Of a stretch of DNA of 64,000 nt, positions 48,589 to 63,713 are shown piece after piece (the first letter of the stretch is position 1; each line of letters begins with the position of its first letter). The DNA comes from Clostridium sp. GTDB lineage: Bacteria; Bacillota; Clostridia; Clostridiales; Clostridiaceae. Made by a program: the position numbers and the translations under genes. The stretch covers positions 62,001 through 126,000 of the forward strand of contig JARLHR010000216.1 in NCBI GenBank assembly GCA_031292145.1, read 5' to 3'. Below the pieces are notes generated by a model that saw only the letters and a program-made list of their open reading frames with translations, did no database searches and was not told the DNA's origin.

Positions 48589-48622
48589 TTGTAACATATT
48601 TGTAACAATAATTGGTTATAAT
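48589..48622 (+). promoter_or_regulatory. Pho-box-like promoter of small-RNA unit A
   Basis: TTGTAAC (48589-48595), four bases, TTGTAAC (48600-48606), ten bases, TATAAT (48617-48622). Confidence 0.7.
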
Positions 48623-48628
48623 AACATA

Positions 48629-48717
48629 TGTAAAGTAGTTTAAGCATTATTATCCCTTATTAAAAAATACTTTCAAAGAAGAATGACTTATTCCCCTAAG
48701 TAAGTCATTCTTTTTTT
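48629..48717 (+). ncRNA. Predicted small RNA, unit A
   Basis: From the expected start 7 bases after TATAAT the RNA carries the conserved GTAAAGTAGTTT and a CCCTTATTAAA linker, then a terminator: AGAATGACTTA (48680-48690) pairs with 48701-48711 around the loop TTCCCCTAAG, followed by seven T. No ORF or ribosome site. It is closest in sequence to unit D. Confidence 0.7.
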
Positions 48718-48814
48718 ATTTCACTAAAAAATAAAGGTTAACCAAGTATTTCTACTCAATCCACCTCTAATGGCTAGTATTTGTGCAATTTAACCAAGAT
48801 AAACATTATTATTT

Positions 48815-49291
48815 CTATCTGAACTTTTCCATTCGATAATGCCCTTCATCATCCAATTCTTCTAGTCCATCCTTATAAGTATATCCCATTTTCTTATAGA
48901 AATCACATGCAGTAATTGATGCTGGAATCTCTATTCGTTTTGCTCTTAAAAAGTATTCATCACTCTCTAACGTTTCTATTATTGCTCTACCTATACCTTT
49001 ACCCTGTAATTCAGGTAAAACAAATATCGTCAAAAGTATACTTTCATCTTGTTTCCCCCAAAAACTTGATATTGCACCACAACCAACAATTTTCTTATCT
49101 ATGCAAGCAACGTACATATGTGCATAATCACTAATCTGTACTACCTTATCAGAATTATACACTTTTGATAAGTCTTCCATCTCTTTTTTAGAATAATCCC
49201 TAATATTCACTTCTAAAAAATTTCTGCAAATTATATTAGATACTTCAGTTTCATCATTTTTATCAAATCTTCTTATACTTAAATCTTCCAT
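48815..49291 (-). CDS. GNAT-family N-acetyltransferase
   Basis: A 158-residue GNAT protein. The acetyl-CoA loop is visible as LPELQGKGIGRAIIETLE (motif A) and the C-terminal ITACDFYKKMGYTYKDG (motif B). The substrate is unknown. AGGGGAGAG precedes the ATG. Monocistronic. Confidence 0.88.
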   Translation of the reverse strand: MEDLSIRRFDKNDETEVSNIICRNFLEVNIRDYSKKEMEDLSKVYNSDKVVQISDYAHMYVACIDKKIVGCGAISSFWGKQDESILLTIFVLPELQGKGIGRAIIETLESDEYFLRAKRIEIPASITACDFYKKMGYTYKDGLEELDDEGHYRMEKFR

Positions 49292-49419
49292 ACATACTCT
49301 CCCCTATTTTTCTACCTATAGAATCATTAATAACCTATACTGCACAATTATATACAAAGTTGCAGAACTACAAAACCTTAATTTTTACGCGCTTTTATGA
49401 TTACCTCCACTTAATATAG

Positions 49420-49800
49420 TTAACTTCTTCTATTTCCATTTTCATCAAAATTCTTTTTTAATTCTTTCTCGACTGGAAAAATAGATACAATTAAGGCAAT
49501 AGTTTGTATAGTAACTAAAATAAAATCAATGATTCCCTGAATTTCATCATCAAATGTAAAGGCGATTAAACTAAAAATAATAGATATAATTATCATTATA
49601 ATTCCTAGCTTCATCCATAGCCTTCCACAATATCGATGTGCAAATTTCCAAGTTTCCTTGTTTTTCATTGACATTGATGTCCTATAACCATAAATTCCAT
49701 TAATATTTTTGGGGCTGTGATTTCTAAATTTCACTCCAAAAAACAACATAATAACTGGAATGATTAAATTGCAGATAAATATAAATATTTTAACTCCCAT
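49420..49800 (-). CDS. SdpI-family membrane protein
   Basis: Start at ATG 49800 (TGGAGGAG upstream) gives 126 residues with three hydrophobic segments and the SdpI-family loop NGIYGYRTSMSMKNKETWKFAHRYCG. SdpI of B. subtilis confers immunity to the SdpC toxin; many relatives have no partner toxin, and none is seen here. Confidence 0.8.
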   Translation of the reverse strand: MGVKIFIFICNLIIPVIMLFFGVKFRNHSPKNINGIYGYRTSMSMKNKETWKFAHRYCGRLWMKLGIIMIIISIIFSLIAFTFDDEIQGIIDFILVTIQTIALIVSIFPVEKELKKNFDENGNRRS

Positions 49801-50200
49801 ATACTCCTCCATATTATAGAATATTTATCTATACTCTATTTTAAATTTGTCCGTTTCATGTCCAAAAATTATCTGCAAATAAGGATATTCTTTACTTTTT
49901 TCATGTAATTTCTCCTCATTTATTTAATTTTTTTATGAATTTAATAATAAGGGGCTTCAAATTTATATTTATATATCCTTAAATATAACAGCAATACTTA
50001 CAAAATTACTGTTGTAACACAATTTAAGAAAAAACAAATCAACACTTCATATTAATTATACCTTTTTTTCCTTAAATTGGACACAAAAAAGATAAATGCA
50101 TAATTTTGAGTAAAATTACGCATTCACTTCCAACATTTAATTTTTCTATTTTTACAATTCAGTATAATATGTAAATTTATTTCTAATCTCATATATTTTA
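49801..50200. other. AT-rich intergenic with hairpin
   Basis: A hairpin ATGCATAATTTT/AAAATTACGCAT at about 50096-50122 is the only clear structure. The phrase TTACTGTTGTAAC with a downstream AAGAAAAAAC (about 50005-50035) recurs near 56193. No gene seen. Confidence 0.45.
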
Positions 50201-50440
50201 GGCACATAAAAGAAAATAACACGTCCAAAATGCCATGATTATTTTTCATCAGGCAAGGAAACATATTGTTCTCATAGCGGGCCTATTAGGGCAATCTGCT
50301 GGCGCAGCATGATGGAAAATGGGCACATTAGAAAAAAGCAGCTATGCACCTATGAAAAGAGCATCTATGCTGCAATACGGAACTTTTCTGCATATAAGAA
50401 CTTTTCTGGCAGATGGACTTGTTATTTTTTTGATTGTGCC
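50201..50440. mobile_element. MITE copy M4 (GGCAC family), 240 bp
   Basis: Ends GGCACATAAAAGAAAATAAC and TTTTTTGATTGTGCC with TTA on both sides (50198-50200, 50441-50443). The interior holds GGCAAGGAAACATATTG, CGGGCCTATTAGGGC and degraded inverted copies of the 36-bp unit. Noncoding. Confidence 0.8.
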
Positions 50441-50574
50441 TTATATGCAACTTATAGTATACTGTAAAATAATAACTATAAAACATAGGGTATTATAATA
50501 TTAATAGATAAAAATTAAAACTATAATAATAAGTATTTATATTAATTAAATCTATTTAAAGAAGGGAGTTTTAA

Positions 50575-51375
50575 ATGAGAAATGAAAAAATAAATCGCAA
50601 TAAGTTCAAAAGTAACATATTGTTAAGAATTTTGCAGTTCATTATTATACTACTAATTATTATTGGTGGTTTTATTTATTTAAAATATTGGCCTACCATT
50701 TCATTTTTATATGATAATGCAACTACAAAAGTAAATAATTGTACACTAGATACCTTTGATACTAATAAGTCGAACAACATAAATGCCTCAAATAATACAG
50801 ATCCTTTATATTTGAACTCTGAACTTATTCCCCAAGATGTAAAAAATGCTTTTGTTGCTATTGAAGACAAAGACTTTTATAATCACGGAGGTGTAAGTAT
50901 TAAAGCCATATTTAGATCCATATATTCTATCTTCACCAATGATTGGAGAGTAACTCAAGGGGGCAGCACTATTACTCAGCAATTAGCAAGAAATGTTTTC
51001 TTAAACTTTGATAAAAATTATGAAAGAAAAGTTGAAGAAATGTTTATTGCCGTTAAATTAGAACAAAAATATACAAAAGACCAAATATTAGAGTTTTATA
51101 TTAATAATATATACTTTAGCAATAATGCTTATGGTATTAATACTGCTTCTAAAAAATTTTTTAATGAAGATTGTAGAAAACTAAACCTTTCACAAATATG
51201 CTTTTTAGTTGCAATTCCTAATGACCCTGAGTATTATGATCCAACAAAACACCTAAATAACACTTTGCAACGAAGAAATTTAGTGTTAGAAAAGATGAAA
51301 GAATATGGCTATATTACTGATGAGCAATATCAAACCGCTATTAATTATAAGATAGTTTTAAATTCAGGAAAATGA
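50575..51375 (+). CDS. Monofunctional GT51 peptidoglycan transglycosylase
   Basis: The 266-residue protein has one membrane anchor (about 18-36) and a GT51 domain with the catalytic E97 (VAIEDKDFYNHGG), GGSTITQQLARN at about 125-136 and KLEQKYTKDQILEFYIN. There is no transpeptidase domain, so it is MtgA/Sgt-like and polymerises glycan strands from lipid II. GAAGGGAG precedes the ATG. Confidence 0.9.
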   Translation: MRNEKINRNKFKSNILLRILQFIIILLIIIGGFIYLKYWPTISFLYDNATTKVNNCTLDTFDTNKSNNINASNNTDPLYLNSELIPQDVKNAFVAIEDKDFYNHGGVSIKAIFRSIYSIFTNDWRVTQGGSTITQQLARNVFLNFDKNYERKVEEMFIAVKLEQKYTKDQILEFYINNIYFSNNAYGINTASKKFFNEDCRKLNLSQICFLVAIPNDPEYYDPTKHLNNTLQRRNLVLEKMKEYGYITDEQYQTAINYKIVLNSGK

Positions 51376-51456
51376 TTGCAGAATGGAATTAAAAGCAAAT
51401 ATTATAGCAGATGATCATGCTTAACAAAACTACTCATTATGCTCAATCTTTATCCA

Positions 51457-51727
51457 TTAAGTGTGAGATAACTTTGGAAACATAAATTGATTATCTGCAA
51501 GTAACATTGTATCTTCTCCTAGAACAAATAAAGTATCTTCTTCCTCTAGCGGCGTAATTATATAAGAATCTGTTTCTTTTGGTGTAAAATAAAGTATCTG
51601 TTTCTCTATATTTTTAGTTTCAAAATAATTAAGTATTTTATCCAAAGAAACTTCTTCTAAATTTATCATCTGCACCAGTACCAATAATAAATTTATTTTC
51701 TTTACCTTTAATATTTATATATTTCAT
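51457..51727 (-). pseudogene. Frameshifted small hypothetical gene
   Basis: The only good start is ATG 51727, preceded by AAAGGAATT, giving MKYINIKGKENKFIIGTGADD and a stop after 29 codons. The next frame continues INLEEVSLDKILNYFETK to 51457 with no ribosome site of its own. A one-base indel at about 51660-51670 joins the two into a plausible protein of about 90 residues. Family not recognised. Confidence 0.55.
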
Positions 51728-51834
51728 AATTTGAATTCCTTTCATAATATAATTTAGTATCTTAATCTATTATAAATATAACCTATTAGCATTGTAGTCT
51801 AAAGATAAAATTCTTTACAGTCTTAGTCTTTATC

Positions 51835-52524
51835 CTATTGATTTACTATATTAATGAGTTCTTTAAAATCTTCTACATGGTAATCTGCAAATTTTTTTAT
51901 CTCATTATGCTGTTTTCTCTCCCTTTTTAGCAAGTATCCTGTCAATATAGTTCTTATTCCCAATTCTTTTGCACCTTTTAATTCATCAGAGCCACCATCA
52001 CCAATAAAAATACTCTTCTGTGGGCTAATATTCATCTTATCTAAAGCAATTTTATATATCTCTGTTTGAGGTTTTAAATATCCCACTTCATATGAAAATA
52101 TCGCATTATCAAATAAATTATACAAAGGAGATTTATTCCAATACATTACATCAATTTTATCTGCATTACTAATCAAACATATTTGCTTTCCATTTTTCTT
52201 TATCTCTAAAAGTACATCAACAATTTCAGGGTCTATGTCAATCAAGGATTTCTTCAATCTCTCTTCCCTTAATTTTAAAATTTCTTTTTTCCCAATCTCA
52301 CTAACATTTATCTCCATTTTATTAATAATCTCTTCAATTATCTGTTTAGGACTTATATTTTTACTTGTTGCTCTTTTCAGGTATAATTCATCATCCTCAG
52401 CATATCTTTCCCATTCCTCTTTTGTTATTCCCAATACATCATTTTCATTTCTTAAATTACTGTATTTAGGTGTTACAAGAGTAAAAAATAAGTCAAAAAA
52501 TATAACATCTATATTGTTCTTCAT
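51835..52524 (-). CDS. HAD-superfamily hydrolase
   Basis: A 229-residue HAD subfamily IA-like phosphatase: motif I is FFDLFFTLV (the second Asp of DxD is replaced by Phe, seen in some subgroups), motif II ICLISNADK, and motif IV FIGDGGSDELKGAKELG. An alpha-helical cap occupies about 20-110. It follows the kinase gene by 36 bp, forming an operon with it and the phosphatase remnant. Substrate unknown. Confidence 0.82.
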   Translation of the reverse strand: MKNNIDVIFFDLFFTLVTPKYSNLRNENDVLGITKEEWERYAEDDELYLKRATSKNISPKQIIEEIINKMEINVSEIGKKEILKLREERLKKSLIDIDPEIVDVLLEIKKNGKQICLISNADKIDVMYWNKSPLYNLFDNAIFSYEVGYLKPQTEIYKIALDKMNISPQKSIFIGDGGSDELKGAKELGIRTILTGYLLKRERKQHNEIKKFADYHVEDFKELINIVNQ

Positions 52525-52560
52525 ATTGAAGTCCTCTCTTTTAAAATTTGAATTTGCTAT

Positions 52561-53064
52561 TTACTTTATGACATCCTGATAGATTATATCCACTATTTCA
52601 TTTAAACTTAATTCTTTATGCAGGTATACTTCATGAATAATATCTAATAAATCTTTTTCATTCCACCATTCCCTCATTTCCTTTTCTCCAAATTCATGTG
52701 CATTAGGTTTTTGCTGATGACGATTTAAAGTTTCCTCAAAAGGTATATCAAAGTAATATGCAAAAATTTGGCTGTTAAATTTGTCTAGTAAATTTTTAAA
52801 TAATTTTTTATACCACTTTGAATTCAAAATACCTTCTAAAATTACTATATTGCAATGGCTTTTTCCGTATAGTGCAAGTTCCAATAATAACTCACTTGCC
52901 TCTGGATTAAGTCCATCTTTTACAAATAGCATTTCTCTTCTAACAACATCTTGTGAAATTAACATTGTACCATGTCCAAATTTTCTTTGTAATGCCTTGC
53001 CTGTAGTAGTCTTACCACTTCCAGAATTGCCTCTTAGTATTATTAACTTTGCCACTCCATTCAC
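52561..53064 (-). CDS. P-loop kinase-like ATPase (AAA_33/zeta-toxin type)
   Basis: The 167-residue protein has Walker A GNSGSGKTT near residues 12-20, a Walker-B-like IVILEG strand and a LID-like Arg region, as in small nucleoside/aminoglycoside-type kinases. It starts at GTG 53064, immediately after the TAG of the upstream gene, with AGGAG inside that gene's end, so translation is coupled. Confidence 0.8.
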   Translation of the reverse strand: MNGVAKLIILRGNSGSGKTTTGKALQRKFGHGTMLISQDVVRREMLFVKDGLNPEASELLLELALYGKSHCNIVILEGILNSKWYKKLFKNLLDKFNSQIFAYYFDIPFEETLNRHQQKPNAHEFGEKEMREWWNEKDLLDIIHEVYLHKELSLNEIVDIIYQDVIK

Positions 53065-53595
53065 CTATATCTCTCCTTTTGAATTGAGCAAATCACTATC
53101 TATTTCTGTAATCGAAGTATTATCAGTTTTAAATTTTATCATTTCATCAAAAGGAGTGTTTGTTATATAGCATTGTATACTCATAATTACAGCACTATGA
53201 GTTACAATTACAACATCTTCAAAATTCTCCTTAATAATCTTATGTATTGCTGTTAAACCCCTCTCTAGCATATCCTGATATGATTCCCCTCTAGGAGTTT
53301 TCGTATATCTTCTATTTATATACCATTGCTCATATTCGATTGGATATTTCTGCTTAACTTCTGCCCATGATAATCCTTCCCATTCTCCAAGATTCATTTC
53401 CTCTACTTCTTCTATTGGTCTATAATCCAAATTAGTAGCGTGGCCCAAGATTTCTGCTGTTTTAACTGCTCTTCTTTGTAGACTTGAATAGATTTTTGAA
53501 AATTTATATCGTTCTTCTAATATCTTATTACTCAATTCTTCCGCCTGTTTAATACCAGTATGATTAATCATTTGAAAATAATCATCCTTTATCAA
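53065..53595 (-). pseudogene. N-terminally truncated histidine phosphatase (phosphoglycerate-mutase-like)
   Basis: The 176-codon frame begins in the middle of the family pattern (HTGIKQAEELSNKILEERYKFSKIYSSLQRRAVKTAEIL). The N-terminal RHG motif with the phospho-accepting His, normally 20-30 residues earlier, is absent and not found upstream in any frame. The second His (VIVTHSAVI) is present. Without the RHG motif the phosphatase cannot work, so the copy is broken, though its reading frame is intact and still coupled to the kinase. A start at Met9 with AAAGGATG is possible. Confidence 0.7.
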
Positions 53596-53654
53596 GCATA
53601 TTTTAAAAAATAAAGCTAAGGATTGCTCCCTAACCTATTTAAAATATTATCAAC

Positions 53655-53688
53655 TTGTCATAATACTGTCACAATTCCAACTTATACT
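53655..53688 (+). promoter_or_regulatory. Pho-box-like promoter of small-RNA unit B
   Basis: TTGTCAT (53655-53661), AATA, CTGTCAC (53666-53672), ten bases, TATACT (53683-53688). This is the copy closest to the enterobacterial Pho-box consensus. Confidence 0.75.
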
Positions 53689-53694
53689 AATAAC

Positions 53695-53788
53695 ATAAAT
53701 TAATTCATTTATTTGGTTCCCTATTAAATAAATGTTATAATCCAGTATTCAGGATAACTTATTTGCATATAGTAAGTTGTCCTTTTTA
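53695..53788 (+). ncRNA. Predicted small RNA, unit B
   Basis: The transcript would carry CCCTATTAAATAAA (from 53719) and end in a hairpin: AGGATAACTTA (53751-53761) pairs with TAAGTTGTCCT (53773-53783) and is followed by TTTTT. Loop TTTGCATATAG matches unit F. No ORF. A stretch AAAAAATAAAGCTAAGGA upstream (53605-53622) recurs ahead of unit F (61570-61587). Confidence 0.7.
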
Positions 53789-53826
53789 TTTTAATTTTAT
53801 ATTTTGTTAATATTGAGTTAATATAA

Positions 53827-53860
53827 TTGACACTATTATGTAACATTAAAAACCTATAAT
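53827..53860 (+). promoter_or_regulatory. Pho-box-like promoter of small-RNA unit C
   Basis: TTGACAC (53827-53833), TATT, ATGTAAC (53838-53844), ten bases, TATAAT (53855-53860). Confidence 0.65.
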
Positions 53861-53866
53861 AATGTT

Positions 53867-53953
53867 GTAATTCTTTTTAACATATTATTTATTCTATATA
53901 ATTAATATGGAATAGAAATGACTTATTTCCCCAAATTTAAGTCATTTCTTTTT
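53867..53953 (+). ncRNA. Predicted small RNA, unit C
   Basis: The most diverged copy: the linker reads TTATTCTATATAATTAATA instead of CCCTATTAAAT. The terminator GAAATGACTTA (53915-53925) pairs with 53938-53948 around TTTCCCCAAATT and is followed by TTTTT. It starts less than 80 bp after unit B ends. Confidence 0.6.
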
Positions 53954-53992
53954 GTTTTAATTTTATATGATGTTAATATTAATTTTATAATT

Positions 53993-54026
53993 TTGTTACA
54001 TGATTGTAACACATATAATTTATAAT
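53993..54026 (+). promoter_or_regulatory. Pho-box-like promoter of small-RNA unit D
   Basis: TTGTTAC (53993-53999), ATGA, TTGTAAC (54004-54010), ten bases, TATAAT (54021-54026). Confidence 0.7.
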
Positions 54027-54032
54027 AATAAC

Positions 54033-54131
54033 TGTAAAGTAGTTTTCATTATTATTTACCCTTTATTAAATAATTAATATAAATATAGTAAGAAGGATGC
54101 TTGTTACCTCTAACAAGATGTCCTTCTTATT
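54033..54131 (+). ncRNA. Predicted small RNA, unit D
   Basis: It shares ACTGTAAAGTAGTTTTCATT and CCCTTTATTAAATAA with units A and F. The terminator AGAAGGA..CTTGTTA (54091-54106) pairs with TAACAAG...TCCTTCT (54111-54127), followed by TATTGTTT; the loop is CCTC. It ends right at the 3' end of the convergent secreted-protein gene. Confidence 0.65.
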
Positions 54132-54133
54132 GT

Positions 54134-54673
54134 TTATCTACGCATAAAATTCCAAGCTCTATCAAATTGCTTTTGTACTTTATCAAATTGTTTATCAATT
54201 TCGTCATTAGTCTTGTTTATAAAATTGCATAATTGTTCCCTTTCCTTGTTAGATTCATTTATAACATCATCAAAGTTATTGCTATCGTAAATTGGTAAAG
54301 TCATATCTGGCGGAATATTGACAGGTAAACTCACTTGCGCACACGTAGTAATATCCATTGGTATACTTACTGCTGAATCTGTAGTAATATTAATAGGAAA
54401 CGTTACCGCTGAACCTGTTGTGCTATCAAAGGATATTGCTACTGCTGAACCAGTGGTATTAGTAATATTAATTATAATTAAATTACCTGTAAACCTATCA
54501 TCTTTAGAATCCAATCCATGATTGTCAAAAATCGTACCATTTTGAATATTTTCATTAGTATTAAATTGATACCAGCCTTGTCCAGCTTGTCTCCAACTAG
54601 CATTTGCACCTACCGGTAGTGCAACAAACATAGTTGCACAAGCAATCGTCAAAGCTATTAATTTTGATTTCAT
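54134..54673 (-). CDS. Secreted hypothetical protein with short repeats
   Basis: The 179-residue product has a clear signal peptide (about 1-25, cleaved after GANA). It then has SWRQAGQGWYQFN, reminiscent of one cell-wall-binding-type repeat. Residues about 72-120 contain four imperfect 13-16-residue repeats of the form TTGSAV.I.....IT. A charged amphipathic tail (REQLCNFINKTNDEIDKQFDKVQKQFDRAW) ends it. AGAAGGAAG precedes the ATG. No family recognised; probably surface-associated. Confidence 0.7.
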   Translation of the reverse strand: MKSKLIALTIACATMFVALPVGANASWRQAGQGWYQFNTNENIQNGTIFDNHGLDSKDDRFTGNLIIINITNTTGSAVAISFDSTTGSAVTFPINITTDSAVSIPMDITTCAQVSLPVNIPPDMTLPIYDSNNFDDVINESNKEREQLCNFINKTNDEIDKQFDKVQKQFDRAWNFMRR

Positions 54674-55175
54674 TACAATGCACTTCCTTCTATTATTTTT
54701 ATTAGCTATATTATACCATCATTGGTTATATTTCGGTATAATTATGTAATGTATTTTTAGATATCTCCTTGACTCTAAATCAATGCCAAGGTATTATCGA
54801 GGCTTTCCTAAAATAGAAATAACTGCACTTGTAAAACCACAAAAAATAAAAATCAAATGATTTTACAAATACAATTATGATATTATCGAGTATAACCCTG
54901 CCACTTTAGCCAATGGTCTCGGCATCATATTACCTAATTTATAATGTATCTCAACACTATATACATATCCAAACAAGCCTTATCTTTATTTTACCGGCTT
55001 GTCCAATCTTTTGATTACTCTATGTAGCACTTTATTAAAAGATTTCCACTTCCCACTCCTCTTTGTCATAGGATAAAATATCCCTTAGACCAAACAACCT
55101 TTGGAGAATTTCATTAGGTCTTACGTCATACAGTTATAAGGTAATTATATAACTGTAACCTAATGTATTTTCTGT
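54674..55175. other. Degenerate intergenic region upstream of an IstB fragment
   Basis: About 500 bp with no intact gene. A nested hairpin at 55112-55165 (CATTAGGT outer arm, CAGTTATA inner arm) may be an IS-derived structure. A tiny minus-strand frame starting MTKRSGKWKSFN at about 55072 has no family and no ribosome site. Confidence 0.45.
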
Positions 55176-55250
55176 ATGTGCTACATCAAACATCTTAGAA
55201 TTATTTATAGTTGCTCTAAAGCTTGTATAACTAACTTATTGTCTGTAATA

Positions 55251-55538
55251 GTGCAAACCTCCGTGTTAGATGCCTTGGTGCATCTAACCGATAAAGAAAT
55301 AGCATATAAGAATGAAATGGCTTCAAAGATACAGATAACTGTAGCAGGTTTTCCTTTTGTAAAAATAGCTGAACATTATAATTATGACTTTCAGCCCTCG
55401 GTAAATAAAGCACAGATTAAAGATTTGTGTTCATTAAGATTTATTGAAAATAAAGAAAATATATTATTTTATGGAACTCTAGGTGTTGGAAAAACGTACC
55501 TAGCTACCACTATCGGAGTTGAAGCAGCGAGTAAATAG
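55251..55538 (+). pseudogene. Fragment of an IS21-family IstB helper ATPase gene
   Basis: The conceptual product matches IstB from its middle: ITVAGFPFVKIAEHYNYDFQ, then KAQIKDLCSLRFIENKENIL and Walker A GTLGVGKT followed by YLATTIGVEA. It stops there, losing the C-terminal two thirds of the ATPase domain; the N-terminus is also degraded. No IstA or intact IS ends are visible. The truncation point coincides with the truncated end of the convergent nitroreductase gene. Confidence 0.8.
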
Positions 55539-56447: not shown

Positions 56448-57302
56448 TCAAAACTCATTTTCATGTATTTTGAAAAAGTCATAATATATACGTACATTTT
56501 CTAATTCCGTCCATCGTTTTACATCAACAGGATCTTCATCCAGATTATATATTTTTGCTCCTTTCATTGAAAGCAGAAATGGTGAATGGGTTGATATAAT
56601 GAACTGACATCCCAAAAACCTTGCAGCGTCCTCAATAAAACTCATTAATTCCACTTGACGTTTTGGAGAAAGACTATTTTCAGGTTCATCTAATATATAC
56701 AGTCCATTTTCATTAATTTTTTCAATAAAATATCTGAATGCACTTTCTCCATTTGAATATTCCCTCACATTACTCATTAATTTATCTCTCACAAACCGTG
56801 ATTGAGTTTTACTTCTAGTAAGATTTACTTTTTTTAGCTGTTCATAATCTGCTATAGACTTCATCTGAAAATGAGAATATTTTGTATCCAAATATTCTTC
56901 AAAAAGTTTATCACGTTTTTGGTCAATTCCTTCATTTAGATTACGAATATTTAACATATAGTCAAATGCATCATCACTAGTAATAATTCTGCTATTTTCA
57001 GGAATTTCGGTTTCAATATACATCTTGCACATATCGACATAGTCAGGATAGAAACTAGATTTATTAAATATAGAATCGCGGCTTATTCCTGTTTTTTCTG
57101 CTATAACATTTAGTGCCGTTGATTTTCCCGAACCATTTCCACCATATAAAATTGTAACTGGCTCAAAATCAATTCTTTCAAGGCTACATGATGATAATAT
57201 CTTAAATGGATAAAATGAATCATAGCATGTTCTTTTTATTTCCTTGAAAAATTCAGACTCCATATCTTCATTTGGAAATGTAAAAAAATTCAAACAAACC
57301 AT
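56448..57302 (-). CDS. AAA_21/ABC-type ATPase, stand-alone
   Basis: The 284-residue protein has Walker A GGNGSGKST at 54-62, an ABC-like signature SNGESAF, Walker B GLYILDEPENSLSP and the D/H-loop IISTHSPFLLS. This is the layout of small SMC/RecF-like AAA_21 ATPases, including OLD-like and retron- or defence-associated ones. No nuclease domain or neighbouring effector is evident. AAGGAG precedes the ATG. Confidence 0.82.
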   Translation of the reverse strand: MVCLNFFTFPNEDMESEFFKEIKRTCYDSFYPFKILSSCSLERIDFEPVTILYGGNGSGKSTALNVIAEKTGISRDSIFNKSSFYPDYVDMCKMYIETEIPENSRIITSDDAFDYMLNIRNLNEGIDQKRDKLFEEYLDTKYSHFQMKSIADYEQLKKVNLTRSKTQSRFVRDKLMSNVREYSNGESAFRYFIEKINENGLYILDEPENSLSPKRQVELMSFIEDAARFLGCQFIISTHSPFLLSMKGAKIYNLDEDPVDVKRWTELENVRIYYDFFKIHENEF

Positions 57303-57407
57303 TCTTTTCTCCTTACTAACTAACTATTTAAATTTTATTGTAATAATGTAGTGTAAAAACTACAAATTTTTATTTCTAAATCCTGATTAGTATTTTTATA
57401 ATTATAT

Positions 57408-58082
57408 TTACTTAATACCATCTATTTCCGACTTTAATCTAGTAAAATATTCATCCATGAATTTTAATCTTTCTTTTCCTATTTCCCTTGCTTTCCCTGT
57501 ATATAATTTATCTGGAATTTTCTTAAACTTTATCTCATACTCAATAAAAGGTGTATGTTTTGAAACATCTTTCAACCTTCCATTTTCAACAGTATTAAAT
57601 TTCAAATAATCATTTAATGGTTCATTTACTGTTAGTCTTTGTCCAAATTGTCCTGCTAACATAAAAGTACGAGCAATTCCACTTGCCCCTATAACATCAA
57701 GTTTATCTGAATCAAAAAGTATTTTTGCTTCTATTGTATTAGGCTCATTTCCTGTTCTAAACCTATGTGCTACGATACAGTGTTTTATCTTCTCTATTTT
57801 CTCTTCCGAATATTCTAGTTTTCTTAGTATATCCTCTGCAATCACACTACCCAAAACTGCATGATCAATTTCTCCTGTTTTATCTTGGCTTTCTTCTACT
57901 CTTGCAATATCATGTAATAATGCTGATGGAATAAGTATTTCTAAATCAACATTCTTCTCATATTTTGCAAGTAATAAGCAAAGATTATAAACTCTAAATA
58001 CATGATCTAAATTATGTGCAGAACAAGTTAGTTTATCTTGAACAATTTCTATAATTTTTTTGTGTTTTTCTTCTAAATTCAT
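57408..58082 (-). CDS. HD-domain phosphohydrolase
   Basis: Start at ATG 58082 (TAGGATGG upstream), 224 residues. HD motifs are visible: SAHNLDHVFRVYNL (first His), LLHDIAR (HD pair) and FDSDKLDVIGASG (terminal Asp). It resembles YedJ/YpgQ-type metal-dependent nucleotide or phosphate hydrolases. Monocistronic. Confidence 0.85.
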   Translation of the reverse strand: MNLEEKHKKIIEIVQDKLTCSAHNLDHVFRVYNLCLLLAKYEKNVDLEILIPSALLHDIARVEESQDKTGEIDHAVLGSVIAEDILRKLEYSEEKIEKIKHCIVAHRFRTGNEPNTIEAKILFDSDKLDVIGASGIARTFMLAGQFGQRLTVNEPLNDYLKFNTVENGRLKDVSKHTPFIEYEIKFKKIPDKLYTGKAREIGKERLKFMDEYFTRLKSEIDGIK

Positions 58083-58239
58083 GTATATTACCATCCTATT
58101 TATAAAATATTTCTATAACTACAGATTATCAAACGTATGTTCTTTTGTCAAATTGTTCTATTTTTTTATTTGTTTTATAATTACATAAATATTTATGTTT
58201 ATTAATATAAAATTAACTGCTATCTTCTAAATTTGAATT

Positions 58240-58273
58240 TTGCCATCATTCTGTCACAACAACCTACTATAAT
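58240..58273 (+). promoter_or_regulatory. Pho-box-like promoter of small-RNA unit E
   Basis: TTGCCAT (58240-58246), CATT, CTGTCAC (58251-58257), ten bases, TATAAT (58268-58273). Confidence 0.7.
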
Positions 58274-58279
58274 AAACTT

Positions 58280-58380
58280 ATAAGATTGATAAAACTTTTT
58301 TTCATAAATATTTACCCTATTAAATATAAAGTAAAGAGTAACATGTATATTCCCCTATGCATGTTACTCTTTATTATTTT
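58280..58380 (+). ncRNA. Predicted small RNA, unit E
   Basis: It carries the TTTACCCTATTAAATA linker (58311-58326) and a terminator: AAGAGTAACATG (58334-58345) pairs perfectly with 58360-58371 around TATATTCCCCTATG, followed by TATTATTTTT. An overlapping open frame on the same strand has no ribosome site and reads through the terminator, so it is not believed. Confidence 0.7.
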
Positions 58381-58560
58381 TCACTTTAAATTTCTGTATA
58401 AAGTTACTTTAGGTACTCCTGTCATTTCTTCAATTTCTTTTAATGTATGCTGCTTACTATTCACTTACAATCTTTATTTATTTGTCATATACTTATCACA
58501 TTTTCATCTTATAATTAAAATCACTAAAAAAGGACTTCTCTATGAGTTGTCCTTTATATT

Positions 58561-58863
58561 TTAATTACCATATTGGTTGCCAAATTTATTTATTATTAAA
58601 TTTATTGTTTCTTCTAATTCTTGCTTATATTTTCTTTCTTTTTCAATTTTAATTATTAATTCTTTTAATAACACTTTATGCGTATTATATTTATCATGGT
58701 TATTAACATAACTTTCACATAAAAAATAATCTTTTGAATATTTAATTTCCATTTTTTCTATTTCTTCGATTTTATTTTTTAAGTTAGTTTGTAATTCTAA
58801 CATTAGTTCTTTGTAAGCTTTCTCTTTAGTTTTTTCATTTATAAAAGTATCTTTATTATCCAT
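58561..58863 (-). CDS. Small coiled-coil hypothetical protein, 100 residues
   Basis: Start at ATG 58863 after AGAGGAAATAAT. The product is highly charged and predicted helical (KEKAYKELMLELQTNLKNKI and KIEKERKYKQELEETINL), suggesting a coiled coil. It lies 53 bp downstream of a similar small helical gene, probably one transcript. No family recognised. Confidence 0.65.
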   Translation of the reverse strand: MDNKDTFINEKTKEKAYKELMLELQTNLKNKIEEIEKMEIKYSKDYFLCESYVNNHDKYNTHKVLLKELIIKIEKERKYKQELEETINLIINKFGNQYGN

Positions 58864-58916
58864 ATTATTTCCTCTCAAAATATTTATCAGCGAAATTTTC
58901 CGCCTCTAACACTTAA

Positions 58917-59159
58917 TTATATTCCATATTTAGCCTTAACTTCTCTAAGTTCATCTTTTACTGATTTTTCATTACATTCAATTTTATCAATTAACTCATC
59001 AAATTGTTTTCTTAAGTTTTGAATATTAGTTGCTAAATATCCATCACCTCTAGCTCTTGTATTTTCATAATATCTCCCATTTTCTAAATTCTGTAGAATA
59101 TAATATATTTCATTTAACTCATGAGAGTATTTATTTCTGATTTCGCTTTTTTCATTCAT
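58917..59159 (-). CDS. Small helical hypothetical protein, 80 residues
   Basis: Start at ATG 59159, preceded by the perfect AGGAGGTGA. The product (MNEKSEIRNKYSHELNEIYY start) is charged and helical with a central RARGDGYLA turn. It resembles small phage- or plasmid-type structural/regulatory proteins, but no family is recognised. Confidence 0.65.
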   Translation of the reverse strand: MNEKSEIRNKYSHELNEIYYILQNLENGRYYENTRARGDGYLATNIQNLRKQFDELIDKIECNEKSVKDELREVKAKYGI

Positions 59160-59223
59160 ACTTCTCACCTCCTCATCAAAATATTAGTGAGCGCCATTTT
59201 TAGCAGCTCACAATCTTTATTTT

Positions 59224-59256
59224 TTATTTTCTTGAACCAAATGGATTTCCTGACAT
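59224..59256 (-). CDS. Possible 10-residue microprotein
   Basis: ATG 59256 follows a perfect AGGAGGTGGAAAT and encodes MSGNPFGSRK then stop. It heads the two small helical genes. It could be a leader peptide, a genuine microprotein or the stump of a lost gene. Confidence 0.35.
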   Translation of the reverse strand: MSGNPFGSRK

Positions 59257-59612
59257 ATTTCCACCTCCTATATAATATTGAACAGTACAAAATTGTACAG
59301 TCATATTATATTTTCCATAAAAATGTCTATATTCCTTTATTTTCTATCGGGATATTTAAATAATTTTATTGTGTGCCAAATCTGGCTCGGTCTAAACTTC
59401 GACTATCCAAAATCGGTTAGTTCTAATATATTTTACATGAGCGAAAAATTTCGCCTTTGTTGTGGACATGATGTCACTATCCATAGAACTGATATCGAAC
59501 GAGCGTCAGATGGACGTATAAGGCAAGTTGCAGTGTAAAATTAGACTTGATGGCTTCTTTATAAAGTTAACAAAAAATAAGACTAAGATTTCTCCTAGTC
59601 TTATAACTATAA
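59257..59612. other. Spacer with a locally G+C-richer segment
   Basis: 59375-59545 is visibly richer in G+C than its surroundings and holds a plus-strand frame ending MSEKFRLCCGHDVTIHRTDI and 14 more residues, without a ribosome site or known family. It may be a remnant of foreign DNA. Confidence 0.4.
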
Positions 59613-61064
59613 TTATATAAACTTAAAATGATATCCTCTATGGTGTTTATATCTTCCATTACATACACTTGAAATCATAGTACCATCCAATTTAATCCCA
59701 AATGCTTCCAAACTTCTTTTTTTACATTCTGCAATTAATTTAAAAGTTTGCCCAGTTTCAATGCATATTATTTGCTTTGAGACTTTATTTTTCAGCCTCT
59801 CATACCCATCTTCCATAGCTTTTTTCGAATTATACTCTATAATCCCTAAATCATTCCCCTGTTTTAAATATTTTAATACGGTTGATCTACTTAAATCCAC
59901 ATCATTCATTATGTCTGTGGTTTTAAATCCATTTTCCCATAACCGATAAATTTCCTTTACTATCGGAGTACAAGCAAACTCGTGACATTTAAGCCAATCG
60001 ATAGTATTTAGATCAAATAATTCATTCAATCTACTCTCTGATATATTTTGTTTTATAAAATTACAATTAGATTTTCCACAGTCAATTCTGATTGGTTTTT
60101 CTATTCCATGCTCTACGGCTAATCTATCTTTTTCATCATCAATATAATTTTGTTCTTTTATTATTCTTCTAAACTTACTATTCTTTTGAGGTTCTTTTTT
60201 ATGTTGTAATCCATCTGCTTCTACTATATATTCTTTTTTATTTAATTTAAAATAGAAATCATATCTTCCACTTACGAATTTATTTTTATTTTTATAGTCT
60301 ATAAATTTACACCATTTGGGTGGATACTCTGTTTCAAAATTTATATTTAGTTGTTGTAAAAATTTAAATATAAATTTTTCTGGATAAGATTTTTCATTTG
60401 AACACACTCTACACATTAACCCATGTTGCACTACTGTTGCTGGTGCAATATTCTTTTCGAATCCACATATAGGACATTTCATAGCTATTTTTATAGCAGA
60501 TGATTTACTATATATATAAGCATCATCTTTATATTTTAGTAAATCAACAATCCACGAAGCAGTTGTCGCAATATCATTATATCCCTTAATGACTTTATTA
60601 CCTCCACCACATACACCACACCCGTTCCCATGTCTTATATCATCTTCTAACATTTCATCTTCATTTGGGCATGATAGGCATTTATATTTGTAACATTTTT
60701 TTGCATGATTCTTTTTATCATATCTTCTAAAACAACCTGTAATTTGAATTTTTGATACTTTGGTTTCAATAATATCTCCAACTTTATAATCATAATTATG
60801 ATTTATTAATTCTAGCACTTCTTTTAATTGGCAATTCCTTAAACCTGTTGTGCTAATTATAAAAAAATTATTTCTATATCTTATTTTTAATTTAGGATTA
60901 TCACCTTTTATATATTCAACAATTTCTATCTCACCTTGAATATCATCATATATTAATTTAACTTTGTATCCAATTGATTTTTTCCAATTTATAAGTTTTC
61001 CATTATACCCATTACATCTTGGTAAATTATCTAAAAACACTTTTCTAATTTTATTATTGCTCAT
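59613..61064 (-). CDS. Zinc-ribbon, PD-(D/E)XK-like, NUMOD-type protein (homing-endonuclease-like)
   Basis: The 483-residue protein shows, in order: an N-terminal beta region, a Cys-rich part with paired CxxC knuckles (CLSCPNED, CGVCGGG, CPICGFE, CRVCSNE, residues about 120-225), and a nuclease-like core RYDFYFKLNKKEYIVEADGLQH (about 265-290), fitting the PD-(D/E)XK pattern of EDxHD/Vsr-like homing nucleases. An HTH (TTDIMNDVDLSRSTVLKYLK) and a C-terminal NUMOD1-like DNA-binding repeat (IICIETGQTFKLIAECKKRS, then ISSVCNGRYKHHRGYHF) follow. AGGAGG precedes the ATG. No intron context is evident; free-standing mobile nuclease is inferred. Confidence 0.65.
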   Translation of the reverse strand: MSNNKIRKVFLDNLPRCNGYNGKLINWKKSIGYKVKLIYDDIQGEIEIVEYIKGDNPKLKIRYRNNFFIISTTGLRNCQLKEVLELINHNYDYKVGDIIETKVSKIQITGCFRRYDKKNHAKKCYKYKCLSCPNEDEMLEDDIRHGNGCGVCGGGNKVIKGYNDIATTASWIVDLLKYKDDAYIYSKSSAIKIAMKCPICGFEKNIAPATVVQHGLMCRVCSNEKSYPEKFIFKFLQQLNINFETEYPPKWCKFIDYKNKNKFVSGRYDFYFKLNKKEYIVEADGLQHKKEPQKNSKFRRIIKEQNYIDDEKDRLAVEHGIEKPIRIDCGKSNCNFIKQNISESRLNELFDLNTIDWLKCHEFACTPIVKEIYRLWENGFKTTDIMNDVDLSRSTVLKYLKQGNDLGIIEYNSKKAMEDGYERLKNKVSKQIICIETGQTFKLIAECKKRSLEAFGIKLDGTMISSVCNGRYKHHRGYHFKFI

Positions 61065-61652
61065 ACTACAAGACCTCCTAAAATAATTATTAATTTCGGT
61101 CTTATATTACTCATATATAATCATATCTATACGTTTAATTCATTTTAGTCAGATTACACCACTCATACTTGTAATTTAATTCATTTTCTTTCATTTACTC
61201 CATTTTTCATTTATTTTATTTTATTATTTTTATAAAAAATAAGCGAATCTAACCAAATTACTATACTCAGATACGTTTTATCTCATCAGAAAAATATATG
61301 CCACATCAGATTTTAAATTGTAAAATAATAACCCAGCAAGTAATAGAGCCACTTTGCAGAGTTTTACTGACTCAAATTATGTTATAATTTATTACTTTCT
61401 AATAGCTAAACTTAATAGAAATGTGATTATTTCTAGGCAATCTAATAAAAATTTTAAATTTAATATATTTTATAATTGAAATATTCTATGTACTAAAATC
61501 ATTAAATTACTGCAACATTAGTAAATAAGCTATTTTTCATTTTTATCTTGTATTATAATTTATTAAGCGAAAAAATAAAGCTAAGGAACTTTAACTTCTC
61601 AGCTTTATATATTAATTTTATTTAAGATAGTATTTATATTAAGTTAATTAAC
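61065..61652. other. AT-rich spacer upstream of the Tn3-type element
   Basis: About 590 bp without genes. A hairpin at about 61577-61608 (AAAGCTAAGGA pairing with TTCTCAGCTTT) is followed on the minus strand by TATTTTTTCG and may be a terminator. Its left arm is the sequence shared with the region ahead of small-RNA unit B. Confidence 0.5.
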
Positions 61653-61670
61653 TTGCCATAATCCTGTCAC
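61653..61670 (+). promoter_or_regulatory. Orphaned Pho box of small-RNA unit F
   Basis: TTGCCAT (61653-61659), AATC, CTGTCAC (61664-61670), then AATTCCATCT and T before the transposon end. Its -10 element lies 1.9 kb away at 63601 on the other side of the insertion. Confidence 0.75.
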
Positions 61671-61681
61671 AATTCCATCTT

Positions 61682-61719
61682 GGGGTAGCTCCAACATTTC
61701 CGACAAAACCCACGCTAAG
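61682..61719. repeat. Left 38-bp Tn3-type terminal inverted repeat
   Basis: Exactly 38 bases from GGGGTAGCTCC to CACGCTAAG, the canonical Tn3-family length and ends. Confidence 0.85.
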
Positions 61720-61790
61720 ACAAAAATTGGGTATAAATTAAAGTTTTTACCCACGTTAATCAAATTATAGCCAAAAGCAAGTACCATAAA

Positions 61791-62126
61791 GGGGTACCGA
61801 GCACAATTCGTGCAAAAGCAACGCTAAGAAAATTAACCTCCCACAAATTACAATATATGTATTTATGGGAGTTTTTTTGTTGTCTAATAAACGAGCGTTT
61901 TTGAAACAATTAAGCATATACCTTATAGACACTAATTTTTGAAGAAAACTCTATCTCGTAAGTCGTTTCAAAATCAAAGTTAAAAAAACTCTTGTTTTAA
62001 ATGACTTATGAGATAAATAAAAAACTATAAATAGCCTATTTTCAACAAATTAAATTCAATATAATTGCAAATATGGAACTTGAATTTTATAAACGTTACT
62101 TTTGCACAAATTGTGCTCTATACCCC
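61791..62126. mobile_element. Nested Tn3-type mini-element (TIME-like), 336 bp
   Basis: Ends at 61791-61828 (GGGGTACCGAGC ... ACGCTAAG, 38 bp) and 62089-62126 are inverted copies. The direct repeat ATAAA lies at 61786-61790 and 62127-62131. Inside are a plus-strand terminator (61838-61878, CTCCCACAAAT arm plus seven T) and a 21-bp inverted repeat (61952-61973 with 61995-62015, TATCTCGTAAGTCG arm) that could be a recombination site. No ORF. It inserted into the outer element. Confidence 0.85.
61838..61878 (+). terminator. Terminator inside the nested mini-element
   Basis: CTCCCACAAAT pairs with ATTTATGGGAG (one mismatch), followed by TTTTTTT. No plus-strand gene precedes it, so it may end a short RNA of the element. 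Confidence 0.6.
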
Positions 62127-62259
62127 ATAAAGGTTAAATTCAAGTTGTTCTGATACTTTGTTTTTGGTAATAGTTTTAGAACTAAAAATCACTAATAAAA
62201 AGGTTATTTCTAAGACTTTTATTATAGGACCAAAAACGAGGGTTTATGGAATTATATTC

Positions 62260-62297
62260 CTTAACGTGAGATTTGTCGGTTTTGTTGGCTGCACCCC
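62260..62297. repeat. Internal 38-bp Tn3-type right end
   Basis: Its complement reads GGGGTGCAGCC to CTCACGTTAAG, 38 bp, with the last 11 bases identical to the Tn3 end. It pairs with the left end at 61682 but is followed by TTAAA, not the ATCTT duplication, so it marks a former shorter element (61682-62297) now embedded in the larger one. Confidence 0.75.
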
Positions 62298-62374
62298 TTA
62301 AAGGTAAACATTGTCATGTGGCTATTTTTAGTATTAATCGTTGCCTTACCCATTATTCAATAAACGTAAGTAAA

Positions 62375-62412
62375 AAATGCTGTAAATTCAATTTTTGAAT
62401 AATACAGCATTT
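62375..62412 (-). terminator. Intrinsic terminator of the passenger genes
   Basis: AAATGCTGTA and TACAGCATTT pair perfectly with inner AATTCAA/TTGAAT; the minus strand continues TTTAC. It lies 29 bp after the small membrane-protein gene. Confidence 0.75.
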
Positions 62413-62440
62413 CTCATTATCTTTTTAATTTTAAAAGGTC

Positions 62441-62563
62441 TTAAGAATTTTTATTAATATAGATTTTTAGCGCTTTTATTAATAATATTAACGTATATAT
62501 GCTTAATACGAATAATACTATTTCCGCAATTAAATTTAGTGTTCCTACAGCTAATAAATTCAT
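62441..62563 (-). CDS. Small membrane protein, 40 residues, passenger gene
   Basis: ATG 62563 follows AAAGGATTTC; the longer frame to 62644 overlaps the preceding gene and is not favoured. The product MNLLAVGTLNLIAEIVLFVL continues as one long hydrophobic helix with a Lys-rich end (KALKIYINKNS). It lies 37 bp after the secreted-protein gene, so the two are co-transcribed. Function unknown; an anchor or immunity role is conceivable. Confidence 0.6.
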   Translation of the reverse strand: MNLLAVGTLNLIAEIVLFVLSIYTLILLIKALKIYINKNS

Positions 62564-62600
62564 GAATGTAGAAATCCTTTCGTAATTATAAAAATCATTA

Positions 62601-63356
62601 TTAGGAAAACTTAGCTTGTGAATATGCAGAATCATGACTAACAACTAATTTTAAATATAAAGTACCTGAAGAATAATTAGTATCACCTAAAAATTTTAAC
62701 GTAGCTTCTGCAGCATGATTATATGTTTCTTTAGGTCTATTTACACTTAAAGAAACATTAGAAATGCTTATTACATTACTATGGACATATTCATCATATG
62801 CATCATCTATATAGTCATCACCACCTTGAACAAAGGTATAATCTGCATAAAAATAGGCGTTAATCAATCCAAGATCTTCAGATACTTTTGAGTAAGTGTG
62901 ATTTACATACCCAGAACCAGACTCAGTTTTGCCACCATCTACGTCATCTAGTGATATATCACCTTTTTTTGAAGAAGTAGACTTAACGGAACCATCTGTA
63001 ACTCCTGTTATTGAAATTGAACCATCAGCATAAGTATTTTTAGATGTATTTTCATCCAATTTTTCAGTTTTAATTGGTGAACTTGAAGTTACTGAATCCC
63101 AGAGTTGTCCTTTTTCTAATTTTTCTAAGAGTAGTGCTTTTGTATTAGAGTCAACATTATATTGGCTTAGCCAATTATCTAAGGATTCTTTATTTTCTTC
63201 AGTCAAATTTAATTTTATACCAGAACTTGAAGTTATTTCTTTGTCTTTTGTTCCAGATAAATCTGATGCAAAAGCTGTTGTAGTTATGCTAGTAGTTGAT
63301 AGCACACTTATTGCTACAGCTCCCATTAAAAATTTCATTATCTTATTTCTTTTCAT
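62601..63356 (-). CDS. Secreted hypothetical protein, passenger of the Tn3-type element
   Basis: The 251-residue protein has a signal peptide (about 1-30, cleavage near TAFA-SD), a helical segment (LTEENKESLDNWLSQYNVDS, then LLEKLEKGQLWDS) and a beta-rich, Ser/Gly-rich second half rich in aromatic pairs (NAYFYADYTFVQGGDDYIDD). No Cys pair, LPXTG or known domain. GGGGAG precedes the ATG. Being the main cargo of a mobile element suggests a selectable extracellular role; toxin or surface protein are guesses. Confidence 0.7.
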   Translation of the reverse strand: MKRNKIMKFLMGAVAISVLSTTSITTTAFASDLSGTKDKEITSSSGIKLNLTEENKESLDNWLSQYNVDSNTKALLLEKLEKGQLWDSVTSSSPIKTEKLDENTSKNTYADGSISITGVTDGSVKSTSSKKGDISLDDVDGGKTESGSGYVNHTYSKVSEDLGLINAYFYADYTFVQGGDDYIDDAYDEYVHSNVISISNVSLSVNRPKETYNHAAEATLKFLGDTNYSSGTLYLKLVVSHDSAYSQAKFS

Positions 63357-63511
63357 TTTAACTCCCCAATAATTAATATTAATATATTTATTTTATAAGT
63401 ATATTATTACAACATATTTTTACATCTGTAAATGGTTATGGTATAAAACGTCTAAAATTTGGAACAAACGGAAACTTATTGTATGATTTTACATTAAACT
63501 AATTAAATAAA

Positions 63512-63543
63512 AAAGCAATTCAGATGCAGATCCGAATCGCTTT
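63512..63543. terminator. Terminator-like hairpin near the right end of the element
   Basis: AAAGCAATTCAGAT pairs with ATCCGAATCGCTTT (G-U pairs included); the minus strand continues TTTATT. It would insulate the passenger genes from outside transcription. Confidence 0.6.
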
Positions 63544-63600
63544 AATTATTTTTGGTTATAATTTGATTAGCGTGGGTTTTGTCGGAAATGTACCCCATCT

Positions 63601-63606
63601 TATAAT
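63601..63606 (+). promoter_or_regulatory. -10 element of disrupted small-RNA unit F
   Basis: TATAAT directly follows the right-hand ATCTT duplication. The upstream spacer is regenerated only as far as ATCTT; the Pho box is on the far side of the element. Confidence 0.65.
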
Positions 63607-63612
63607 AAAATC

Positions 63613-63713
63613 ATAAAGTAGTTCATTATTATTTCCCTATTAAATAAATATATAAAATCATAATCCAATTGAAAAGGATAACTTATTTGCGTATAGTAAG
63701 TTATCTTTTTTGT
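63613..63713 (+). ncRNA. Predicted small RNA, unit F (promoter severed)
   Basis: The body is intact: CATAAAGTAGTTCATTATTA, CCCTATTAAATAAA, and a terminator AAGGATAACTTA (63674-63685) pairing perfectly with 63697-63708, followed by TTTTTG. It is nearly identical to unit B in the hairpin and to unit D in the 5' part. Without its Pho box it is probably not induced. Confidence 0.6.

Follow-up and report, generated by a model that had tools for sequence, protein, structure and literature searches.

Predicted sibling small RNAs of Clostridium behind an OmpR-family-type promoter box that also precedes htrA, prsA and regulator genes

What are the short non-coding units that recur on the plus strand of a 64,000-nucleotide stretch of a Clostridium sp. 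genome (assembly GCA_031292145.1, contig JARLHR010000216.1, positions 62,001 to 126,000; hereafter the window), and which regulator might switch them on? Each unit joins two 7-bp direct repeats, 4 bp apart, to a -10 element of the TATAAT type, a short body and an intrinsic terminator. An earlier reading made from the letters of the window (the sequence-only reading) counted six such units and assigned them to a phosphate-starvation regulon. Here we report that the family is real, conserved and larger than first reported, that its promoter box also precedes htrA, prsA and regulator genes, and that the box is lacking at the pst promoters scored, so that the phosphate assignment probably misread the signal. 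The evidence taken jointly favours the view that the units are copies of a predicted small RNA (sRNA) gene, siblings spread through the genus Clostridium, and that they form an envelope- or secretion-stress regulon with a response regulator (RR) of the OmpR family as its putative activator.

A family of units with a fixed promoter geometry

Five units in the window, A to E, are intact and share the 7-4-7 repeat layout with exactly 10 bp before TATAAT (TATACT in B) (Table 1). The sixth unit of the original count, F, is not intact: a 1.9-kb inverted-repeat element separates its repeats (61653) from its TATAAT (63601). Joining the flanks into an empty site restores TTGCCAT-N4-CTGTCAC-N10-TATAAT, which scores 35.0 on the matrix, more than any of A to E. 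A seventh, degenerate unit at 58482 scores 25.0 and has only a short hairpin body after its -10 (-12.0 kcal/mol). Thus five of the six units stand as described, and the family extends far beyond six. The motif CCCT(A/T)TTAAA, said to be conserved in five units, is exact in B, E and F; by reading, A has CCCTTATTAAA, D has CCCTTTATTAAA and C lacks the motif.

Under a looser rule, which asked for at least seven of the eight bases at positions 2, 3, 6 and 7 of each repeat followed by TATAhT, the window held six sites (A to E with all eight bases and 58482 with seven), compared to a mean of 1.07 in first-order Markov sequence (0-5 in 30 runs). A position matrix trained on 42 boxes, with A, B and E among them and C and D outside, gave scores of 19.6-34.0 for A to E (19.6 for C and 20.0 for D), and its chance rate in second-order Markov sequence was 0.06 per 64 kb at scores of at least 15. 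At this threshold nine sites were found over the whole window, namely A to E, 58482, the left half of F (16.7) and sites at 10956 and 29855. The site at 29855 (minus strand, score 17.5) lies inside an open reading frame (ORF), and we take it as accidental, though no site scoring 17 or above turned up in 2 Mb of second-order Markov sequence. No TTGACA-like -35 element was present in A to E at spacers of 16-18 (at most three of six bases match), as expected of an activator-dependent promoter.

In the window's own genome, a search with the promoter pattern returned 62 matches at up to two mismatches, compared to 39 in the control, and the same kind of body and terminator followed 14 of the 25 pattern sites read outside the window. 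An initial MAFFT alignment of all units misaligned the helices and yielded no structure, so the two body types were modelled apart, using covariance models restricted to bodies and starting just after the -10: R1 from 11 units of the E type, and R2 from 8 units of the A, B, D and F type. R1 gave 25 own-genome matches at E≤1, which fell to 16 once nine that read the same hairpins from the other strand were set aside, and R2 gave 16 at E≤0.1. The two lists do not overlap and total 32 units, 19 of them training members; unit C was matched by neither model at the cut-offs used, and one additional own-genome match lies in locus L128.

A covariance-model search of Clostridium genomes, the check that the sequence-only reading had proposed, shows that the family recurs. 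Across 79 genomes R2 matched 37 including its own, of which 36 fell among the 48 of the same genus and one among the 31 outside it (G014, E=0.025, possibly by chance), with 1 to 19 matches per matched genome. Three of the 12 same-genus genomes without an R2 match (G011, G024 and G026) carry a unit with the 31-base core GTAAAGTAGTTAAAGCATTATTATTTACCCC (L233, L234 and L239), and 36 of 48 is therefore a lower bound. The exact core occurs in 42 stretches of a named-genome collection, of which 39 are labelled Clostridium, with species that include C. beijerinckii, C. puniceum, C. tertium, C. paraputrificum and C. neonatale; the other labels are Bacillota, Caproiciproducens and Eubacterium multiforme. 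Downstream of the core-bearing copy, 40 of these 42 loci have an ORF that its motif assigns to the methionyl-tRNA synthetase type, and in 33 one of the two closest ORFs to the left is of the TatD type; the neighbour types were checked against Pfam on one example of each. Units also occur in tandem, with three in the window (53655-54136) and several each at 29.6-32.2 kb of contig C26 in G041 and at 1.748-1.758 Mb in G008, which suggests growth by local duplication.

Searches of the literature found no description of the family or regulon, and earlier prediction of single members is possible; in the accessible part of PMC3879012 the words homolog, copies, phosphate and two-component were all missing. 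Rfam 15 gave no match in the window at the gathering score and no family match in eight unit loci at E≤1, where the lone match was a chance one to mir-329, away from the unit in L107.

To describe the promoter independently of how units were found, we used units outside the own genome that had been recovered by the body-only models or the 31-base core. After removal of duplicates these numbered 109, many being orthologues of the copy beside metG or recent copies and thus not independent, and 89 of them carry the 7-4-7-10 box. Repeat gaps of 2, 3, 5, 6 or 7 at spacers of 7-13 bp occurred in none of the 109; at the gap of 4, some units also fit other spacers (8 in 22 units, 13 in 14, 7 in 9 and 12 in 3, with none at 9 or 11). 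The consensus of the 89 is TTGwCAy-N4-yTGwCAyA-N9-TAnnAT, and at the fifth repeat position 85 of them have C in the first repeat and 84 in the second.

The terminator hairpin shows strong compensatory change. In 88 aligned matches all 12 pairs of the terminator stem have two-sided changes, and over both helices 94.1% of cells are paired in 79 distinct rows. The covariation score of the whole structure, in an alignment that was fitted to the terminator helix, was 0.471, compared to 0.197 when shuffled and at most 0.120 when slid. The 5' helix 1 (GUAAA...UUUAC) has 89.9% of cells paired, but 25 of 70 cells break at the outer pair and two-sided change is seen in three of nine pairs, and we therefore regard this helix as probable rather than proven. 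Together, the geometry in 89 of 109 units and the terminator covariation strongly support the part of the original proposal that predicted multi-copy sRNA genes behind an activator-dependent promoter of the OmpR-family type.

C-rich stretches are exposed in these predicted structures, with UUUACCCCUU at or after the first hairpin and a terminator loop that reads UUCCCCUA, UCCCCUAA or CACCCUAG in many units; B, F, L013 and some others have a loop without a C run. Against 152 start regions, which were ORFs of the named loci picked for AGGAGG-like sequence, the core segment paired at a mean of -8.9 kcal/mol, compared to -4.6 for internal sequence and -3.2 for a C-to-A control, and the terminator loop paired at -8.1 compared to -3.8 for internal sequence. 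This pairing with Shine-Dalgarno sequences is a capacity, not a specificity.

Table 1. Features of the window, with the promoter-model regions that lack the strict box in the last line.
Feature	Position	Strand	Details
Box upstream of response regulator gene	10956..10989	+	TTGTAAC-ATAA-CTGCCTT-N10-TAGTAT; score 20.0; 77 bp between its end and the ATG
OmpR/PhoB-family response regulator, candidate activator	11067..11738	+	ORF listed from TTG 11007
Partner histidine kinase	11738..13249	+	HAMP, HisKA, HATPase
Unit A	48589..48720	+	Box TTGTAAC-ATAT-TTGTAAC (48589-48606); -10 TATAAT (48617-48622)
Unit A body and intrinsic terminator	48623-48720 (modelled)	+	Predicted sRNA; UUCCCCUA loop; R2 training member
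Unit B	53655..53787	+	Box TTGTCAT-AATA-CTGTCAC; -10 TATACT (53683-53688)
Unit B body and terminator	53689-53787	+	R2 training member
Unit C	53827..53957	+	Box TTGACAC-TATT-ATGTAAC; -10 TATAAT (53855-53860)
Unit C body			Divergent, without CCCT motif; terminator with UUCCCC loop
Unit D	53993..54136	+	Box TTGTTAC-ATGA-TTGTAAC; -10 TATAAT (54021-54026)
Unit D body and terminator	54027-54136	+	R2 training member
Unit E (second body type, R1)	58240..58380	+	Box TTGCCAT-CATT-CTGTCAC; -10 TATAAT (58268-58273)
Unit E body			CCC-loop hairpin and terminator with UUCCCCUA loop; R1 training member
Seventh, degenerate unit	58482..58565	+	Box TTGTCAT-ATAC-TTATCAC, 10 bp, TATAAT
Unit F left half	61653..61681	+	Activator box TTGCCAT-AATC-CTGTCAC and spacer up to insertion
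Inserted element	61682..63594		Inverted-repeat ends; 7-bp target duplication CCATCTT; splits F promoter
Unit F right half	63595..63716	+	-10 TATAAT (63601-63606); body and terminator (63607-63716); R2 training member
R3 regions without strict box			L250, L252, L253, L254, L273, L277, L280, L284, L285, L288, L289, L290, L294

The element that splits unit F has a 22-bp perfect inverted-repeat stretch near each end, and its end sequence has one further copy, at contig C125. It carries an ORF on the minus strand (62601-63356) for an exported-looking protein of 251 amino acids with no Pfam match, and no transposase-like ORF was noticed within it. Nested inside, by reading, is a smaller inverted repeat (61791-62127, GGGGTACCGAGCACAATTCGTGCAAAAG ... 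CTTTTGCACAAATTGTGCTCTATACCCC) that resembles a miniature inverted-repeat transposable element.

Genes that share the box, and the candidate activator

A promoter-only model (R3) was run on 15 genomes, and we read 50 regions around its sites (forty fetched regions and ten R3 loci), the sites being among the matches listed. Many were further units. The box lies upstream of HtrA in six genomes, five found by R3 (G011, G024, G004, G007 and G029) and the own genome found by the promoter pattern; the proteins were checked with Pfam at L027, L248, L255, L283 and L314, and at L266 by start sequence only. It also lies upstream of PrsA-type peptidyl-prolyl isomerases in four genomes (G024, G011, G026 and G007, at L274, L278, L292 and L295), all four confirmed by Pfam. 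The boxes of these HtrA and PrsA genes score 19.8-26.9, the HtrA site of G024 meeting the matrix and not the strict expression. Further boxes precede SH3-type exported proteins (G035 and G037), a lipoprotein-like gene (G046) and a few unassigned genes, and in G008 and G037 (L270 and L291) a unit-like body stands between the box and an undecaprenyl-diphosphate-synthase-type (UppS-type) gene; Pfam confirms one SH3 protein (L261) and one UppS-type protein (L291). As the same box marks HtrA, PrsA and exported-protein genes, the regulon would most likely answer secretion or envelope stress, in the manner of the CiaRH and CssRS systems.

A second class of box, CTGTAAC-N4-CTGTGAC, occurs in the own genome at L005, L009 and L028, where it precedes a glycosyltransferase-like gene, a small lipoprotein-like gene and a repeat-rich exported protein; it possibly belongs to a related regulator.

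The window itself holds a candidate for the activator, in that the matrix site at 10956 lies upstream of an OmpR/PhoB-family RR encoded next to its partner kinase. Orthologues of this RR were present in all 16 same-genus genomes tested (72-92% identity, including G011 and G024), and the best relative among 16 outgroup genomes reached 61%. The box precedes the RR gene in the own genome and in seven of 14 relatives (G008, G045, G041, G035, G034, G039 and G037; scores of 16.7-22.2). A paralogue of the RR (52-55% identity) has a TTGTGAC-N4-TTGTAAC-like box in six of seven loci (scores of 11.3-23.0, three above 15), and a box of this type was seen by eye at C58 in the own genome. Given the distribution of the orthologues and of the box, we rank the window pair first as activator and a pair linked to prs second; that the window pair or the paralogue fulfils this role is a proposition to which we give slightly less than an even chance. 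Among 16 OmpR-family regulators of G024, the 300 bp upstream held nothing above 1 in 14 cases and weak scores of 7.3 and 8.2 in the other two.

The explanations considered here are not mutually exclusive, and our estimates for them need not add up to certainty. The original proposal was that PhoP/PhoB binds a 7-4-7 Pho box and drives the sRNAs under phosphate starvation, and the box does resemble the Pho box of E. coli and has its class II spacing. The nearest NCBIfam model to the window RR is also PhoB, at 213 bits, below the cut-off of 296.2. The main hint of a phosphate link is a neighbour: in eight of the 42 core loci the nearest left ORF is of the Na/Pi-cotransporter type and divergent from the core-bearing unit, including L185 1734-3344, which has a PhoU domain; this leaves such a link open. 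The promoters of pstS speak against the proposal. At the 18 loci scored of 19 tried (L050 gave no ORF), from 16 genomes of which nine are of the same genus including the own one, the matrix gave -8.7 to 4.9 over 300 bp upstream, and 17 of the 18 had TTAAC-type elements within 250 bp. Three genomes whose pstS loci scored boxless (G004, G007 and G011) have the box upstream of HtrA or PrsA. Neither the RR encoded on the pstS contig of the own genome (L336) nor the RR of G024 that shares its helix (L296) has a box, and PF02690 has no match in the own genome. As far as the accessible part of PMC3091779 goes, the spacing is not diagnostic of PhoB either, as promoters of the csRNAs of CiaR were searched for with an equivalent 6-5-6-10 layout. 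With no box at pstS and boxes instead at htrA, prsA, exported-protein and two-component genes, a Pho regulon was not supported, and we consider it unlikely.

An envelope-stress signal would be compatible with other activators. One is the RR of the block prs-RR-histidine kinase-HtrA-like-pth-mfd-prsA, which in G024 (L312 3755-12341) unites an HtrA-like gene and the box-bearing prsA in one locus, and which recurs in G011 (L315) by ORF order and size. However, its best match reaches just 48-50% in the own genome, G009 and G029, all of which bear units, whereas relatives of 62-67% are found in six outgroup genomes, five of them without an R2 match; nor is there a box above 1 at L297 or at the readable loci among L319-L334 (L330 and L331 were not readable). 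Having neither a box of its own nor an orthologue-level match in three unit-bearing genomes, it was rejected as the regulator and has a small chance in our estimation, on a par with the phosphate proposal. The essential cell-wall regulator WalR (YycF) reads TGTwAh-N5-TGTwAh, to which units A (TGTAAC-N5-TGTAAC) and D (TGTTAC-N5-TGTAAC) come close, and several other box-bearing genes encode exported proteins. But the fifth repeat base in the boxed units outside the own genome is overwhelmingly C rather than A, and none of four RRs scanned reached the NCBIfam YycF cut-off (best 236 bits, compared to 340), which makes WalR a still poorer candidate. Least probable of all, to our mind very much so, is that the units belong to a dispersed family of mobile repeats or attenuators whose members have a terminator-like hairpin in common, and are no sRNA genes. 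Copies are many, stand in tandem clusters (C26 of G041, and near 1.75 Mb in G008) and vary in number between species; yet the promoter is conserved along with its spacing and the C-rich core, and the core-bearing copy keeps its methionyl-tRNA-synthetase neighbour in nearly all named loci. The 103-nt body of L105 had no match at E≤1e-5 in 72,556 plasmid and 50,697 phage records, which, for this one query, speaks against spread by plasmid or phage.

Returning to the preferred interpretation of an envelope-stress sRNA regulon under an OmpR-family RR, several observations weigh against it. The Na/Pi-cotransporter neighbours and the prs-linked block of G024 have been mentioned. The strict box is missing in 20 of the 109 units, several being one or two bases off and some boxless by reading, and 109 overstates the number of independent cases; of the own-genome units not first found by their promoter, four of 14 pass the box test and ten fail. 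Thirteen of the 50 R3 regions have no match to the strict box expression. The start regions had been selected for the sequence to be paired, and when the core was shuffled by mononucleotides, 11 of 60 versions did equally well on average. For the window RR, the box is missing in G050, G046, G029, G004, G009, G026 and G007, as well as at the G024 orthologue (L304), and the seven relatives with a box are the seven with the most window-like RRs (89-92%), so that the box may reflect a single event of descent. The boxes of the RR genes (TGTAAy/TGTGAC) also differ in flavour from most sRNA boxes (TGwCAy), and no regulator is proven.

Proposed mechanism and known systems

In the mechanism that we propose, an OmpR-family RR would bind the direct repeats TGwCAy-N5-TGwCAy in place of a -35 element and recruit RNA polymerase 10 bp upstream of the -10, giving transcripts of about 90-100 nt. 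Their exposed C-rich stretches (UUUACCCCUU and the UCCCC of the terminator loop) could then base-pair with Shine-Dalgarno sequences, which would keep target mRNAs from being translated. Transcription, the identity of the activator, the envelope-stress signal and the anti-Shine-Dalgarno action are all inferred.

Several known systems share parts of this arrangement. The promoters of PhoB/PhoP regulons have direct repeats of an OmpR-family regulator with an 11-bp period and class II spacing, as do the units; in contrast, the pst promoters scored have TTAAC-type elements, and the members marked by our box are mostly exported-protein and regulator genes. CssRS of Bacillus is an OmpR-family two-component system that responds to secretion stress and controls HtrA-type proteases, a link that would recur here, although we know of no multi-copy sRNA family in its regulon. 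LhrC/Rli22 and RsaE-type sRNAs of Firmicutes have C-rich single-stranded motifs able to pair with Shine-Dalgarno sequences, and LhrC is multi-copy; the Clostridium units resemble them in their C-rich motifs and, for LhrC, in being multi-copy, but those searched match no Rfam family.

The closest likeness is to the csRNAs of CiaRH in streptococci, for which our sources were accessible in part. These are sibling sRNAs with their own terminators in tandem and scattered copies (PMC3091779, PMC8186281, PMC4211561), complementary to ribosome-binding sites (PMC3091779), a feature that the Clostridium units share as pairing capacity. Their promoters were predicted from hexamer repeats 5 apart and 10 from the -10, with the boxes NTTAAG-N5-TTTAAG or TTTAAG-N5-TTTAAG (PMC3091779), and HtrA is CiaR-regulated to judge by the title of PMC10197876, which appears to parallel the Clostridium boxes upstream of HtrA. 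The comparison covers promoter and regulon features. Differences are equally clear: the Clostridium box is TGwCAy and not TTTAAG, the helix of the candidate RR is RTVDTNVKRLREKL and that of CiaR VVEVYVSKVRKKL, the latter being found neither in 15 RRs of G024 (L304 left out) nor in the window RR, and this Clostridium genome has 32 units, compared to two to six csRNAs per streptococcal species (PMC4211561, PMC3091779). Given that box, recognition helix and copy number differ, we would describe the family as csRNA-like in its working and not as a member of the csRNAs.

A more far-reaching picture, which we offer tentatively and think less likely than its alternatives combined, is that of a hyper-expanded csRNA-like system that arose independently of streptococci. 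In it, an ancestral sRNA beside metG would have been amplified to at least 30 siblings in large-genome species, with at least two body types, and TGwCAy and TGTAAC boxes would be read by two box-bearing RR paralogues (the window RR and the C58 type), so that the siblings, alongside HtrA and PrsA, damp the translation of exported proteins in a graded way when the envelope is under stress.

If the proposed regulon is correct, solvent producers and gut species of Clostridium would possess an sRNA regulon that is missing from Rfam, one of the most amplified families of sibling sRNAs known to us and an independent parallel to the CiaR-csRNA system. Through it, protein-secretion stress would be coupled to translation in organisms used to make solvents, and there would be a natural system for studying why sRNA genes so alike are retained by the dozen in bacteria.

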